Source of the DNA: Isoetes taiwanensis
Taxonomy: Eukaryota > Streptophyta > Lycopodiopsida > Isoetales > Isoetaceae
DNA length: 64,000 nt
Direction of reading: 5' to 3'
NCBI GenBank assembly: GCA_021234155.1
Contig: JAJEKV010000013.1
Coordinates: 372,001 to 436,000 of the forward strand
Shown: piece by piece, positions 56,275 through 64,000 of the stretch
Position numbering within the stretch: the first letter of the stretch is position 1
Layout: the number at the start of each line of letters is the position of its first letter
Notes under the pieces: model-generated
The model's database searches: none
Seen by the model: the letters and a program-made list of their open reading frames with translations, nothing else
What the model was told of the DNA's origin: nothing
Made by a program: the position numbers and the translations under genes

Positions 56275-59042
56275 ATGGCTGATCCAATGCAGGGTATGGC
56301 ACAACCAATTGATGGGCTGCCGACTATAGCTTTAACCGATGGCATAGTACCTGCACTCCGAGACATCCATTTGGAAGACTTGCCTATGTTTGATTTGGAA
56401 ACGATGCTGCAGGAACAACCCAGTGGGTTGTCAGCTCCTTCTACAACTGCTGTTAGTATGCAACCTCTTAGTGGTACCAGACACCCTGGGGATAATCCAG
56501 TTCCACAGGCGGGCTTGGCAGGTAGTGGGGCAATTACTCCAATAGCACCATTGCTGGCGACTGCGACAACAGTTACTACTATGCCAAGGGGTTCCCAAGA
56601 AGAGCAATTCTTGCTTGCTAGAACCCTGAACAATATGCAGAGACAAATGAATCAATGGATTTTGGAAAGTGTTGCCCGGGAGCAACGCCTTAAGGAATCT
56701 ATTGATCGGCTCATGCAAAACTCTAGGAGTACTGCAAATAATTCCACAACCCAAACGATACGAGGTACCGCAAGGGGACGGGTAGCTGCGAGTGCACCAC
56801 TTGTGGTTGGTCGCTCTATGCCTGACACAGCAAACCCAGCTGTGAGTGAACCTTTCGAGGAGACCTTGAACGGGCTCTCAGAAATGGAAATCAAAGCTCT
56901 GGAAAAGATGAAGATGCTAGAGTTTGACGGCACCAGAGGATGCGATGCTCTGGTTGGGTTGCATGAAATTATATTATGCGGCTACTAAGAAAGGCGACAC
57001 AACAAAGGTGTTGGACGCCTCTCTTTAATTAAAAGGTGTGGCTGCTTCATGGTGGGCTATCCACACCGACAGCGGAAAGACCTTTCGGTCTTGGACAGAC
57101 TTCTGTAAACGATTCAAAGATGAGTATGCGCCTCATTTTGAGAGTCGCCATGCACTAATTTCACTCAAGTTGTCGGTGCAAATTGGGACTTTATAGGAGT
57201 ACGTTAGTAAGCTCCGTGGGTTGTTTGCGAGACTTCCCAACCTTACCCCTCAGATGAGGGTGGACCACTTTGTCAACGGTCTGAAGGAAGTCAGTATTAA
57301 GACACATCTTCTGCAAACGGAACCCAAAGGCTTTGAGGAAGCAGTTGAGTTTGCAAGGAAATCGGTTGGTCGTGAGGAACCTCAAACGACCAAGAAGAGT
57401 TTTGATTGGAAGTCAAAACGAGCCGAAAATTCCGCGGATGGAGCGTCATCTGCTAAGAAGAGGAAGCGGAATCAGTCAAACAAAAAGGCTCGGGGCGGTC
57501 TAAAGATTCCAGTCAGAAAAAGTCAGCTATGAAGTGCTATAATTGCCAGGGCATGGATCATTATGCGAGAGACTGTCCTAACCTGCAAAAGCCAAAGAAG
57601 GCGATAGCTACGATGACCAAAACACCAACGGAGGGTGAAGCCGTGAAGATGCTGTCGGCTATCGCAAGAGAAGAAAGCATGGTAAATATTTCTTCTAAAG
57701 TTTTCTTTGGTAAAGGTATTCGTGTTCTAGGTAGAATCAAGGGAAAGAATGTGGTTGTTCTTATTGATTCTGCGAGCATTGACAATTTCTTGTCTGCAGA
57801 CTTAGCAAGGGAGCTAGGCCTGGAGCTGATGAAGGTGACTCCCGTATGTGGTTGAAGGAGAGCCAGGGCCTCAAGTTCAGCGTGGAGATCAACAAGCGCA
57901 GGGCGTAGACTTGACGCTTCAAGATAGAAGTTCACCTAGAGCAGTACAGTTTAGAATTGATGACGATTTGATCAATTTAAAATGTTATGATGTCATTTGG
58001 GGATAAAATGGTTTCAAACTGCACGTCCACTCATTGATTGGGCATCCCATGTGTTTAACTTTTGAGTTAGAAGATACTAAGTCTATTAGTATACAAGGAT
58101 CGCCTTACGTTGGATCCGGGATATCGGCCACTCAGGCCAAAACTGCTTTTAGAGTGAATAATAATCAAGTTTTTTAGAATATATGTATATGATGATGATA
58201 TATGCGTTAAAACTTATAATTCACTTGTAGAGCAACCGGATGGAAGCTCCCAGCTTCATCCTTAGTTACTTGATCTTTTTGAAAGATACAAGGATGTGTT
58301 TCCTGAGGAGTTGCCCATAGGGCCACCTCCGTCAAGGGGAGTGGAGCATGAGATTGACCTTGAGCCTCGAACTAAACCAATGGTGAGAGCGCCTTACCGT
58401 TTGAGTCATCTTGAGTTAGAGGAAGTTAAAAAGCAAGTTAAAGAATTGCCTGAAAAGGGGTTTATCCAGCCAAGCAAATCTCCTTTTGCAGCTCCGTTGC
58501 TGCTAGTTAAGAAAAAGGATGAAACTATGCGCATGTGCATAGATTATCGCGCGCTTAACAAAGCAACAATTAAGGATAGATACCTTTTACCACGGATTGA
58601 TGATATCTTAAATCATTTGGGCAGTGCAACTTGGTTCACCAAGATTGATTTAAGAAGTGGATATCATCAAATTAAGATCCATGCGGGTTGATGAATCAAA
58701 GACTGCTTTTCGAACTCATCAAGGACATTATGAGTTTTTAGTCATGTCGTTTGGTCTCACCAATGCGCCAACTACGTTCATGAGATTGATGAACCGAGTA
58801 TTCGCTGATTATTTAGACAAATCAGTTGAAGTATTCTTGGATGATATACTTGTCTACTTGAACTCATTGCAAGAACACTTTCAGCGTCTAGAACAAGCAC
58901 TTAAGTGTTGCGATCCAATATGCTGTATGCCAAAATCTCTAAATGTGATTTCCAGAATGGATTCAACCTGAGAATGTTCATGAGTTGAGAAGTTTTCTTG
59001 GGTTAACTACCTATTACAGAAAATTTGTGCCTAAGTTTTCTA
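56275..59042 (+). pseudogene. Ty3-type gag-pol, broken and 3' truncated
   Basis: Gag starts at 56275 (ATG) and stays open for 237 codons. Stops then appear, including TAA near 57028 and TAG near 57195. The nucleocapsid zinc knuckle CYNCQGMDHYARDC is at about 57535-57576. A protease-like LIDSASIDNFLSADLAREL follows near 57760-57816, with DSA in place of the usual DSG. Reverse transcriptase blocks are [11 protein letters not shown] (near 58530), [15 protein letters not shown] (near 58635) and FLDDILVY (near 58834). One frame change lies near 58690. The last recognised piece is HELRSFLGLTTYYRKFVPKF, ending near 59040. RNase H and integrase are absent, so the element is dead. Confidence 0.85.
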
Positions 59043-59195
59043 AGGTAGACACTAGGTGCTTGTGAGGTGCTTTACCTTTTTATACATGCATTTTCTATCT
59101 CCTTATATTCGTCAAGATTAGGTTTTGATGGGCGCTTCCACAGCCCGCGCAAATTTGAGTTTTCTGCCTCTCCTGATTTGGGAATTTGTTAGCCA

Positions 59196-62100
59196 TGTCA
59201 TCAATCCGGTTGGTAGGAGCAGATTTCCCGCTTCTCAGTGGAGCTTTGGTGATGGAATTGAATTTTGAAGAATTGAAACAGAGATCTTGGTTTTGTAGCA
59301 ATTTTTACGAAGTCTTCTTTATATATGGAATTGTTAGTTTGGAGCCAATGGACCTTGTTGAGAAATATGCAGCAGAATTTGAAGCAAGATTTGCTGATCA
59401 AGATCGACAAGCCTTAGCTGCTGCATTTGGTTACAATGTAGAAATCCACATGCCAAATTTGCATGTTGAAACAGAAACTTCAATTCCATTAGAGATCCAG
59501 AAGGATCCCTGCTCATTTGAAGTAGTCTCATTTCTAATTGAGAGTGCTGAAACACAACCCGATTCTACACCTTATAAGGCTTCTTGCACCAAGACATGTT
59601 ATTGTGTATCCCCTAATACAGCTTGCAGGAGAATCATGACAGAAAAGAGAAGACACCAGAGGATTAGGAAGAGAGAGAGAGGGAGAAATTGGCCTTGGAA
59701 AGAGACAAACATACAAAGAGATTGAGCACTAGACATAAACAAAAAGTAGCCAAACAAATTGTGGACTGTATCAACATAGTATATATGAATTTCCATTCTG
59801 AAGATAGACTAGATATTATTTCCAGGGCAGCAAAACATCTTCCTGAATTTAAATTGATTGGAAATAAAGCTTTGAATATGTAAAGCAGACACTTGTCATC
59901 AATAAACTTTCTAGAAGCAAAGACATAAATGAAGCAAGATCATCAACTATGATGATGGCTGTAAGTTCTTCTAGCAATCGTGCTGCTGTGGCAAAAGTAC
60001 TGAACTTGAAAAGGAAGGCTATATATGCTGCTCTTGACAAAAGAAAGATTGCTGACTTTGGAGGACCGCGGTCAATGTTCAAGAGGAGAGCTAGATATGG
60101 TAGAATTTCTGATGCAGATCGTGAGCAGGTCTATAATTTTTGGATATTTGAGACAAGGGTGTCTCCTAATAAATGACAAGTTATCAGATTAAGAAGAAAT
60201 CTTGATGGCAAGAGGATAGCAAGACCACAGAATTTGCATGCAATCCACTTCCTCGAAGAATCACAGGTACATTTTGAGTTATGCTACAATTTTGAACATG
60301 TTCTAACCTAGTTAGGTTTGTCAATGCAGGTAATGTTCTATAAATGTTTCAAATGGCAATTTCCAAATATAAAGTTGGAATAAGGTTATTTGAGGCTTTG
60401 AAGCCAAAGTTCGTGAGACGGCTTAAAGAGCATCTACCACATGCGAGTTGAATTTGTAAGGCAAACAATCAACACGGTACGAAGAGATTCTAAATTTCAC
60501 GGGCCTAGCTGCAGATGCAAATGTGCCATATGTGACCCAGGACCAACATGTAAAACATATATGCACACTTTCAACAGTATGAGCGATATGTGGAGGTCCA
60601 TGGTATGTCAAAAGGATGATGCTACATTTTGGCACAAGCCAAAATGTTTGCAAATGGATTGCGGGGACTGTGGGCTGAAGGCTTTCCTCAAATGTCCAAA
60701 GGAACAGAGTAAATTGAATTGGAAGAACTTTGAAAAGGTATTCTGGCATATCTTAAAGTGTTGTTTCTTTCAGTGTTCTTAGTTGAGTGAATTAAACATG
60801 TCAGTGATTAGTGACTATATTGAATTTCTTAGCATTTCTTCACATAAGTTTTGCTAATCAAAGATGAATAGCATTTTTTTAGTAAACATTTCTGCACATA
60901 ATTTTTGCTGATTAAAGAATTGTTGTGCATGTTGCAGGTGAAAGAGACTTACGTGAAGGATGTGGGCAAAGGTGGAAAGCCGATTGTTAATACAAAGGAT
61001 GTTATGAAGCTGGTTTATAAGAATACATCAGCACATGAATTCATGATACATGCAGATGCTGTAATTAAGCAATTCATTCCTCATAACTATGCGGCAAGAT
61101 AGCAAGTTGATCAGAGAATTATACTTTTAAAATTCAACAGGAAATTCAAACACTGCACTGGCGAAATGATCAATGTTCTATTCTAGTTCAGGCATGCCAT
61201 GAATCGGGAAGTTCCAAATATTAAGATCGACGACCGCAAGTTGGTGAAGGAGACCCATTTCTACATGTCTGATGATCGAGAACATGATTCTCCATTTGTC
61301 CAGCATTGTCTCCAGATGCATGATGACTATTTGGCTAGTATAACTTACTCAAAGCATGTCGTTTGGTCTGATGGTTGTGCGCCGCAGTTCAAGTCTTCTA
61401 GAGCATTTTATTATTTGGGAAGGTTTTTTAAGGAAAATGGAGTACAGATTGGCGGGAATGTCTTTGCCTCCTCGCATGGGAAGGGCGAGCATGACGGTGC
61501 AAGGGCTGTCATAAAAAGAATACTTACAAGTGAGATGCTAAAGAGGGATAGCACACCTCTTCGTAATGCAGAGGATGCGGTCAAGTTCTTGACATGGTAC
61601 TTCACATCAAAGAGAGGCCTGCAAGATAAGAACATCATCCGGTATGCAAACAATAAGGCTTCTTTATTTGACTTACAGTTCCAATTTGCTCATGTAAAGA
61701 ATGTTAATATGGTATGTCTATGTTTGTAGGCACTTTTGGTTAATAGAGGTTGGGGAAGTGTGCAGGAAATTACGTTATGACTGTGATACACTGAAGGGAA
61801 CTACAAAGATACACACCATTAGACCAATTTGTCAAAACAGACCCACTATGGTAGCTCACAAAGGTTTGTCTTGCTTCTGTAGTAGTTGGAAGGGCTTATG
61901 GAATAAATGCTTTCATGTAAAGAGGCTGGGAAGTTACACATATTCAGAATTGAAGCCATTTATCATGGAGAATCACAATCCTGTTACTCATGTGCAATAT
62001 GAAGGTGACAACCAATAGAAAGCGCAACTTGTGGAAGTGGGTGATAATTTTGTCGTGAACGGGGAAGCAAACAATGAAGAGAATGTAGAGTTTTGGATTA

Positions 62101-62582
62101 TCAAGTGTACTGAACCAAAACATGTTGTGGAAAATGCTTTTAGAGACGAATGGAGTTCAAAATTCAGCAGACAACAAGTTATCCTAACTGGCAAATATTA
62201 CAAGTTTGTTGGTGAAAATGGGTATGAATTGAATCACATGCCAGATGTTTCATGCTATTCACATCTTGTCGTATGTGCAAAAGTAGAGTTAATACCTGTT
62301 GTAGGTGAACCATTAATGTATGAGCTGCCATTGGGCTCATATGAGCACATAATAGATTGTTTGCCATTACCTGAATCTGAAATGCTGGTAAGTAGTAAGT
62401 CTACTATATCTTTGAAGGAAAAGAAACAAAAGCAGATTTTGGATGCTGTTAGGAAAAAGGTACAGGCCAGAAAGAAGAATTCAAAGCAGGCTATAGGAAA
62501 AACAAGTCGTTGCACGAAAAAGAAAGCTCTCAGGGTATTCAAAGGATGGGAAGATGCCAAAATGAAGAACAGGAAGATGTGA
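59196..62582 (+). pseudogene. Transposase-like gene of unrecognised family, decayed, with introns
   Basis: A gene-sized unit in several frames. 59196-59880 is an N-terminal region ending in charged repeats and AKQIVDCINIVYMNFHSEDR. 59883-60269 contains a helix-turn-helix-like NRAAVAKVLNLKRKAIYAAL and then KRIARPQNLHAIHFL, with one in-frame stop at 60174. Further pieces follow an intron-like gap (60270-60329). A Cys-rich segment (CRCKCAIC, CLQMDCGDCG) spans 60501-60737, and another intron ends at 60937. 61199-61715 is the core: ETHFYMSDDREHDSPFVQHC, VVWSDGCAPQFKS (61358-61396) and SHGKGEHDGARAVIKR (61472-61519). 61716-62579 has a KCTEPKHVVE...GKYYKFVGENG domain and a lysine-rich tail, with a single stop at 62016. 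Not MULE, hAT, PIF, CACTA or Helitron as I know them. Confidence 0.6.
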
Positions 62583-62589
62583 GTGAATG

Positions 62590-63800
62590 GAGTAACAGAT
62601 TGGAGTTATGAAGTTACTGTCTTGAAGCAGATATGCTTGCAGATATGTAGCAGAGCAGTTAATGTAGCAGAGTTTTTGTACCATGTATTATGCTGCTTTA
62701 GCAAACAATCTAATTGTGATTCAAGCTGAGACTGTGGATTGTGGCATGTATACTCTCTGTAATATATTATAGGGATATTTAATTGCTTTTCCACCTTTCT
62801 TTGATTCAATCAGAAAGGAACTTACCATTTTGTAGGCGTATCTCAAATAGACCCTCAAATGGAAGTCTTTGAGGTGAAAATAGATGTGCTGTTGTAGATT
62901 GTATAAATTTGACTATAGCTTCATCGTGAAGAAGTTAAACAGTTTCTTGTGACTAGTACAATTTATGCTTTAAAGCGCTTATAGTTAATATGCTTCAATT
63001 GGACGTTAAGCAACCCTGAGCTTAAGAGATTAGACGTGTACAATGTTACTCTTGTAAGCAATGTACAATTTCTTTAAACCAAACTAGTCAAATGATGCAA
63101 AAATAACAAGTCAGCAATAGACCTACAAAAATAGATAGCCTCTGGAAAACCAATGATTCTTCTCCCACACAACTAAAATGATAGGCGAAGGATCTTGTTG
63201 TCATACTCAAGAAAAACATGTCCAGACCTCTTTGCTTTCCACCCGGCTAGTATCATTTGTATTTTTCTATATTGCAAAAACAAGCAATATACTTACCCTC
63301 CTAGATATAACCCTCTCAAAAGGAAAGGTTGCATTTCAAGGCAGCCTCAAAGGAATTCAAGCAAATGCAATTAAAACCAGTGCAACCATTTATATTCAAG
63401 ACACAAAGTGATGTGGAGGACTTCTCAATGTACTGCATGCATTTGCCAGACAGCTTGAAACAGCCTGAGATTGTGAATTAGATGTTTAAAGCCAACTGGA
63501 TTGTGGATTGTCTAAGGGTGTTGAAGGCATACTTGCAATGTTGGTGGAAGGATGTGATATACCTGTGATATTTTGCAATGTAAATAGTGTGCTAATGACC
63601 CTATGATTTACACACATTCATAGTGTTCTAAATATTCTGATTCTATGGTATTGGTATCTCTGTAGAACTTAATGGAAAAACTACACGACAAGAACAAGTA
63701 CACAGAACAGTAACATATTTATAATAATGGTTTTTTACAATCGTAGTTGATGTAACAAAATTTGGGCTGTCATGATAGAACTGCCATAAAATTTCTGTCT
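62590..63800. other. Gene-poor stretch
   Basis: AT-rich DNA downstream of the transposase-like gene. No inverted terminal repeat matching DNA near 59050 was found. The open frame at 63178-63411 has no family I recognise. Confidence 0.4.
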
Positions 63801-63808
63801 ACAGGTGT

Positions 63809-64000
63809 CTATCTAATGCCAACAAACTGCTGCAAAGTAATATCATCGTCATCTTCTGTTTCAAAATCTTCTTCAGCTATTTTAGGGTCCTCTTTTGCTA
63901 CTGGAGATTGAACTTCATTCGTTCGTTGTTGATGGTATAGCATTTGGAACACCTATTGTCTGGAAACCTCCAGAGTTGAGATCTACTGCCAAACCAACCT
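63809..64000 (-). pseudogene. 3' end of an unidentified minus-strand gene, frame broken by a 4-bp duplication
   Basis: Read leftwards from 64000, one frame gives VGLAVDLNSGGFQTIGVPNA and then IPSTTNE before a stop. A second frame continues from NEVQSPVAKEDPKIAEEDF into an acidic ETEDDDDITLQQFVGIR and a stop at 63809-63811. A tandem repeat of four bases (CGTTCGTT on the plus strand, 63920-63927) is the simplest cause of the shift. Alternatively an acceptor at the AG of 'acaatag' could start a separate last exon at about 63949. The protein is not recognised; the rest lies beyond the window. Confidence 0.45.

Follow-up and report, generated by a model that had tools for sequence, protein, structure and literature searches.

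The Isoetes taiwanensis DNA analysed here carries the decayed remains of one copy of a two-gene DNA transposon that is present many times in the genome. This dead copy represents a cut-and-paste family that resembles the Sola superfamily in the way it works and is probably part of it. The analysed stretch, hereafter the window, comprises 64,000 nt of forward strand (contig C941, positions 372001-436000), of which the element occupies 59048-64000. Membership in Sola is judged from structure and target duplications, set against published descriptions rather than against Sola protein sequences.

The window copy and its parts

Inspection of the open reading frames recovered every piece that an earlier, sequence-only reading of this DNA had named in its decayed gene (an HTH-like and a Cys-rich segment, core motifs, a GKYYKFVGENG domain and a Lys-rich tail), in order, at 59195-62582 on the + strand and in broken frames. 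The parts of the copy are as follows.

59048-64000, + strand: portion of the decayed transposon copy inside the window (homology edge; comparison of the right part and the split)
59195-60266, + strand: transposase exon 1, start codon uncertain (open reading frames against those of sibling copies; 5' splice motif)
about 59964-60047, + strand: HTH-like stretch in exon 1 (by eye)
60267-60329, + strand: putative intron 1 (splice motifs CAG/gt...ag/GTA; open frames of siblings)
60330-60737, + strand: transposase exon 2 (open reading frames, sibling comparison, splice motifs)
about 60510-60700, + strand: Cys-rich segment in exon 2 (sequence inspection)
60738-60937, + strand: putative intron 2 (splice motifs)
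60938-61641, + strand: transposase exon 3, predicted catalytic-type core (core match 60938-61645, E 8e-99)
61642-61729, + strand: putative intron 3 (splice motifs)
61730-62582, + strand: transposase exon 4, with a second Cys cluster, a BAH-like domain and a Lys-rich tail (open reading frames, siblings, model)
about 62019-62345, + strand: BAH-like domain in exon 4 (structural alignment of the predicted model)
63812-64000, continuing to C941:436627, - strand: 3' coding remnant of the second gene, with its acidic tail (tblastn)
C941:462516-463157: RING exon of the window copy, beyond the insertion described below (RING-protein match)

Four exons seem to make up the transposase, separated by three putative introns with GT...AG borders that were placed from genomic DNA rather than from transcripts. 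These introns would account for part of the fragmentation of the window gene, the remainder being decay: a frameshift near 59680 and an in-frame stop at 60174-60176 in exon 1, deletions of 61 bp (at 61111/61112) and 11 bp (at 61189/61190) in exon 3, and an in-frame stop at 62016-62018 in exon 4, where the Lys-rich tail ends at 62582. Exon 3 retains VVWSDGCAPQFKS, with the codon of the second Asp (D2) at 61370-61372, and SHGKGEHDGARAVIKR, with that of the third (D3) at 61493-61495. The first acidic motif had been expected as a DFxEN-like block before 61199 and suspected to be lost, and so it proved: sibling copies read VSVIDFAENYTFKIQQEIQTLHWRNDQCSILVHITY across the site of the window's deletions, and their first catalytic-type motif, VIDFAENY, falls inside the 61-bp deletion.

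Ten sibling copies were cut out to define the element ends. Seven of them share the start of similarity at the equivalent of 59048, together with about 40 bp upstream of it, best kept as GGGTACACGCACGTTATTGGGGGACAC; these 40 bp of the left terminus are gone from the window copy. The element is thus larger than the earlier reading had it. On its right, it continues beyond the window end to C941:436652, and a further part lies at C941:462092-463279, with about 25.4 kb of other sequence in between. Similarity to the copy L020 breaks at the first of these positions and restarts at C941:462092 at the same place in L020, with a few bases' overlap, indicating that the window copy was split by about 25.4 kb of inserted DNA, in one piece or as several nested insertions. 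No right terminus was found within 1.7 kb beyond C941:463279. Next to the truncated left end of the element, at 58266-58971 (+ strand), lies a decayed remnant that looks, by its motif, like a Gypsy-type reverse transcriptase.

Copy number, selection and element ends

The observed features of the window gene are far beyond chance, given its matches in the genome and the purifying selection on the protein core among diverged copies. A DNA search with the core through 1,658,258,908 bases in 1110 contigs listed 44 matches of 73-100% identity, including the window's own and a few loci counted in two pieces. Protein-core searches gave at least 173 and at least 150 matches, with the best 138 of 9156 and the best 150 of 8341 first-look candidates scored. 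The sequence-only reading would have been refuted by the lack of any homologue outside this locus, and these matches remove that objection.

In the core alignment (A2), whose proteins are 56-97% identical to the first row, D77 and D171 are invariant in all 26 rows, and D212, the Asp of HDG, is present in each of the 13 rows reaching that position, further exons picked by the D3 motif itself being excluded from this count. The three Asp positions are spaced D-94-D-41-D. Their conservation is at the level of motifs only, and they would be the catalytic residues of the enzyme. Of the 55 core pairs, 52 have saturated synonymous sites; the other three, with measurable dS, yielded dN/dS values of 0.09, 0.05 and 0.08, in keeping with purifying selection on the core.

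Alignment of copies from the same genome, as the earlier reading had suggested, defined the termini. A right end is common to three long copies, the two best-kept of which read ...CGTG(C/T)GTACACCC, and the family termini are GGGT...ACGCACG, with inverted repeats of about 13 bp. Genome searches with each terminus (the best 40 of 225 and the best 40 of 75 candidates scored) returned paired ends and a set of elements of about 280 bp, 14 of which, 254-280 bp long, were extracted. Seven of these 14 have inverted repeats (GGGTCTACGCACG and CGTGCGTAGACCC) that match perfectly over 13 bp, and most others come close; these short elements, sharing both ends with the family, are MITEs. The terminal inverted repeats (TIRs) are imperfect in the long copies. 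Element length is about 8.5 kb on C1072 and, in the diverged subfamily described below, about 6.9 kb on C1050.

An exact 4-bp target duplication flanks 18 of the 26 tabulated insertions, that is, 12 of 14 MITEs and 6 of 12 longer copies. As a control, identical flanks occurred 0 or 1 times at each of 13 other offsets, and in 1 of 26 insertions at length 5. The C1072 copy (L011/L019) was omitted from the table, its right end having diverged, and other paired ends also stand outside it. Mixed in sequence, the duplications give no sign of a strict target. Exact duplications are missing from eight insertions (L034, L035, L040/41, L046/47, L048/49, L052/53, L056/57 and L018/21); four of these differ at one base, and L018/L021 would suit a 5-bp duplication. 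Two insertions, L044/L045 on C926 and L052/L053 on C1038, have near-identical flanks, with TTCA/TTCG beside the ends, and are probably one insertion later duplicated with its surroundings.

The family also includes more distant members. A diverged subfamily (C1050 and C1028; L059/L060), whose core is 61% identical to that of the window's family, has the ends GGGTGTATTTTCA and AAAAACACCC; of the two copies compared, one is flanked by a TTTA duplication and the other by TTAG. When six diverged 8-kb loci were searched computationally for TIRs and duplications, the five weak candidates that emerged were not convincing, and the ends of this subfamily were then obtained by comparing its two copies. 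A third subfamily, known from a single copy (L061), has a similar left end, GGGTGAAAGCATATAGGTGGGGGACACTTTTTTTGTC, with an approximate edge.

The claim that this is a DNA transposon family is borne out by its multiple copies, conserved termini, 4-bp duplications and three conserved Asp residues. A domesticated host gene family that keeps a transposase-like core would likewise contain long open frames under purifying selection, as some copies do. It would not be expected to number more than 100 copies, to be bracketed by termini and target duplications or to come with MITEs; the target duplications refute this reading for the family, and we give it next to no credence.

Predicted domains of the two proteins

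The core is predicted, with low confidence, to have an RNase H-like fold. The model shows the order strand-helix-strand-strand-helix-strand-helices-strand-helix (one 3-residue strand omitted), which is the RNase H-like order with one extra helix; the first Asp sits within strand one, and D2 follows closely on strand four. A second structural aligner matched the core to retroviral integrase cores (Z 7.9-8.5 over 82-92 residues, rmsd 2.4-3.0 angstrom) and to Argonautes (Z up to 10.0), although, by the tool's own note, best Z values of 7-8 are common without a true relative. The model itself is weak, with a mean pLDDT of 57.6 and values below 50 for residues 203-262, which hold D3. Foldseek returned no match with E <= 0.001 among 777 from the PDB, its top rows including Argonaute-type and RNase H-type proteins among unrelated ones. 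Against viral models, 5 of 584 matches reached E <= 0.001, all with TM below 0.4 (one RNase H, three polymerases or polyproteins and one unnamed). The RNase H-like fold proposed from the spacing of the D-containing motifs is thus favored by the predicted strand and helix order and the integrase-core matches, while the weak model and the Foldseek result leave it short of firm.

Profile searches did not place the proteins in a named family. Pfam gave no significant family for the exons of the window, L058, L061, L062 and L063, nor any confirmation of the HTH-like stretch in the window exons; NCBIfam gave no significant match for the L061 exons and the L062 core, PHROGs nothing significant for the L061 exons, and a PDB sequence search with the core profile no match at E up to 5. 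A strong profile match to a named transposase or nuclease, which would have undone the earlier proposal, is thus not seen in these four collections. Since this very abundant family met no model in these scans of Pfam, NCBIfam and PHROGs, its copies may go unnamed or pass for host genes.

Outside Isoetes, viral contigs contained 48 and 102 pattern stretches, none a relative, and no instance of the motif pattern; phages and plasmids gave no tblastn match. The single motif-pattern match in prokaryote genomes (L064) lies at the 3' end of an aldehyde-dehydrogenase-like ORF; the five ORFs of at least 100 aa there are all unlike the core by eye, and we regard the match as chance. Some uncharacterised animal proteins may carry DFAENY, SDG..QYK and SHGK..CDG motifs in this order, and a link between plants and animals is a possible lead.

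A second Cys cluster (CFC..CW......C) opens exon 4, ahead of a beta-rich domain with the motif GKYYKF(V/I)GE. In its predicted model (mean pLDDT 59.9), this C-terminal domain most resembles BAH chromatin-reader domains, with which residues ~95-206 align best. The top 36 of the 50 listed structural rows are BAH-containing chains (Z 6.0 to 4.1), including MTA1, EBS, SHL, ZMET2, ORC1, DNMT1, polybromo and BAHCC1; many are repeat entries of the same few proteins, and for several chains we presume the BAH content from general knowledge rather than from titles. From row 37 onward, the matches are mostly other folds, and none of 1000 reaches Z 8. A single Z below 8 proves little by the tool's note, and it is the uniformity of the list that points to a BAH-like fold. 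This reading comes from the second aligner: for exon 4, Foldseek gave 0 of 366 matches with E <= 0.001 and Pfam no BAH match. A PDB sequence search with the exon-4 profile produced 13 matches, the best at E 0.15, taken as chance. The likeness to the plant readers EBS, SHL and ZMET2 lies in the predicted fold; these are host proteins, not transposases, with no sequence-level match to exon 4.

Long copies carry a further gene on the opposite strand, between the transposase and the right end. In L020, it comprises a 475-codon open frame and more exon-like frames towards its 3' end, and encodes a protein with a coiled-coil-like middle (by eye), a zinc-ligand pattern C-x2-C...C-G-H-x2-H-x2-C...C-x2-C and an acidic tail. 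The ligands are invariant in the four rows compared, from three lineages (L019 and L020, L058, L059), the last pair being C-x2-C in three rows and C-x4-C in L059. Pfam zf-RING_2 fits over nearly its whole length, below its cut-off of 27.3 bits, in L058 (14.5 bits) and L020 (13.1), and does not match L059. Several copies also hold an imperfect direct repeat of about 245-280 bp (79-87%) in the second-gene region (L019/L020 ~1516-2085; L099 ~93-629).

The convergent arrangement recurs across the genome. Queries from two lineages placed 51 of 162 RING-protein matches within 10 kb of one of the 219 listed transposase-core matches, where chance would give about 0.0026 (~0.3%) per match; 50 of the 51 pairs lie on opposite strands and 49 have the RING-like gene 3' of the core. 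The test covers best-scored candidates and part of the rows only, so that missing partners mean little; C191 and C1072:4349486 do not fit the arrangement. The RING-like protein could nonetheless be a captured host fragment that rides along and contributes nothing to transposition: its identity among lineages (27-43%) is far below the conservation of the core, and dS is saturated in all three pairs, giving no estimate of selection. We consider this rather unlikely, as the gene keeps its place and orientation in 49 of the 51 co-located pairs and its zinc ligands in three lineages.

Relationship to Sola elements and a possible mechanism

Other superfamilies differ from the Isoetes family. EnSpm/CACTA elements have CACTA-type termini and 2-3-bp duplications; here, the termini begin GGGT and the duplications are 4 bp. 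Kolobok and piggyBac resemble the family in their DDD/E transposase and in duplication length, but they duplicate TTAA, which is found in none of the 18 exact duplications. Ginger1 also makes 4-bp duplications and shares the RNase H-like core predicted here. Its core is a Gypsy-type integrase, in the account of Ginger1 in PMC10741241, and no such Pfam match was seen in the Isoetes family at E up to 1.

Sola agrees better. The passage on Sola in PMC10741241 gives a DDD transposase, 4-bp duplications, a length of mostly 2-9 kb and TIRs from 11 bp, and passages on Sola2 elements of amoebae (PMC3627910) give TIRs of 12-13 bp and 4-bp duplications. The Isoetes family has 4-bp duplications (18 of 26 insertions, and both copies of the diverged subfamily), three Asp conserved at motif level, 13-bp TIRs and a length of about 6.9-8.5 kb. 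Moreover, Sola is reported from seed-free plants, namely the moss Physcomitrella (PMC10741241) and the ferns Azolla (PMC6786969) and Ceratopteris (PMC6890710). The sequence-only view of an undescribed superfamily, unlike those of plants, consequently gives way, since duplications, DDD motif, size and short TIRs all agree with a superfamily known in moss and ferns.

Differences are also apparent. The BAH-like C terminus and the convergent RING-like gene are absent from the descriptions of Sola in the relevant passages of PMC3627910 and PMC10741241, and the Sola2 duplications described in the former are AT-rich, versus mixed in the Isoetes family. Such elements go unmentioned in section 6 of the I. 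taiwanensis genome paper (PMC8566536), and no word beginning "Sola" occurs in the main text of that paper or of the I. sinensis one. Literature searches did not find the core motif strings or a RING finger together with Sola, nor, among the matches listed, "BAH domain" with Sola or lycophyte terms, which does not prove absence in print. These two extra parts, and the lack of significant hits among PDB sequences and in the profile libraries scanned, would suit a distinct DDD cut-and-paste superfamily that happens to make 4-bp duplications. We hold this to be improbable, for the Sola traits open to testing are present, the RNase H-like fold only at low confidence, and Sola itself consists of three divergent subgroups (PMC4455052). 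The likeliest reading is a new, elaborated Sola-like lineage.

We propose that transposition of such a Sola-like lineage could proceed as follows. The N-terminal HTH-like and Cys-rich parts may bind the GGGT... termini, and the RNase H-like D-D-D core would cut the element ends and insert them at staggered breaks in the target, which would produce the 4-bp duplications. The BAH-like domain may read chromatin at the target or donor site, by analogy with the chromodomains of some retrotransposons, which read chromatin. The RING-H2-like protein could serve as a helper of the ubiquitin-ligase type, and the MITEs of about 280 bp, which have both ends in common with the long copies, would be mobilised in trans. 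A bolder version, in which a superfamily-level lineage with its own histone reader and RING ubiquitin ligase practises chromatin-steered, ubiquitination-assisted transposition and has left many diverged copies in a lycophyte, strikes us as doubtful. Should the resemblance to BAH and RING hold true for these parts, the elements would join DNA cutting, chromatin reading and ubiquitination, and chromatin-guided DNA transposition would become testable in plants. The family also gives a search profile with which to trace Sola-like elements between plants and animals.

A second family turned up just beyond the window's right edge, where the initial part of the insertion in the window copy encodes a DUF7869 protein (PF25273, Pfam E 7.7e-27; L037:1810-2151, - strand). 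None of 14 control genomes matched DUF7869, and in the I. taiwanensis genome, where the best 150 of 9908 candidates were scored, the matches listed exceed the curated cut-off. In this genome, DUF7869 thus seems to be a further family of very high abundance, possibly carried by transposons.
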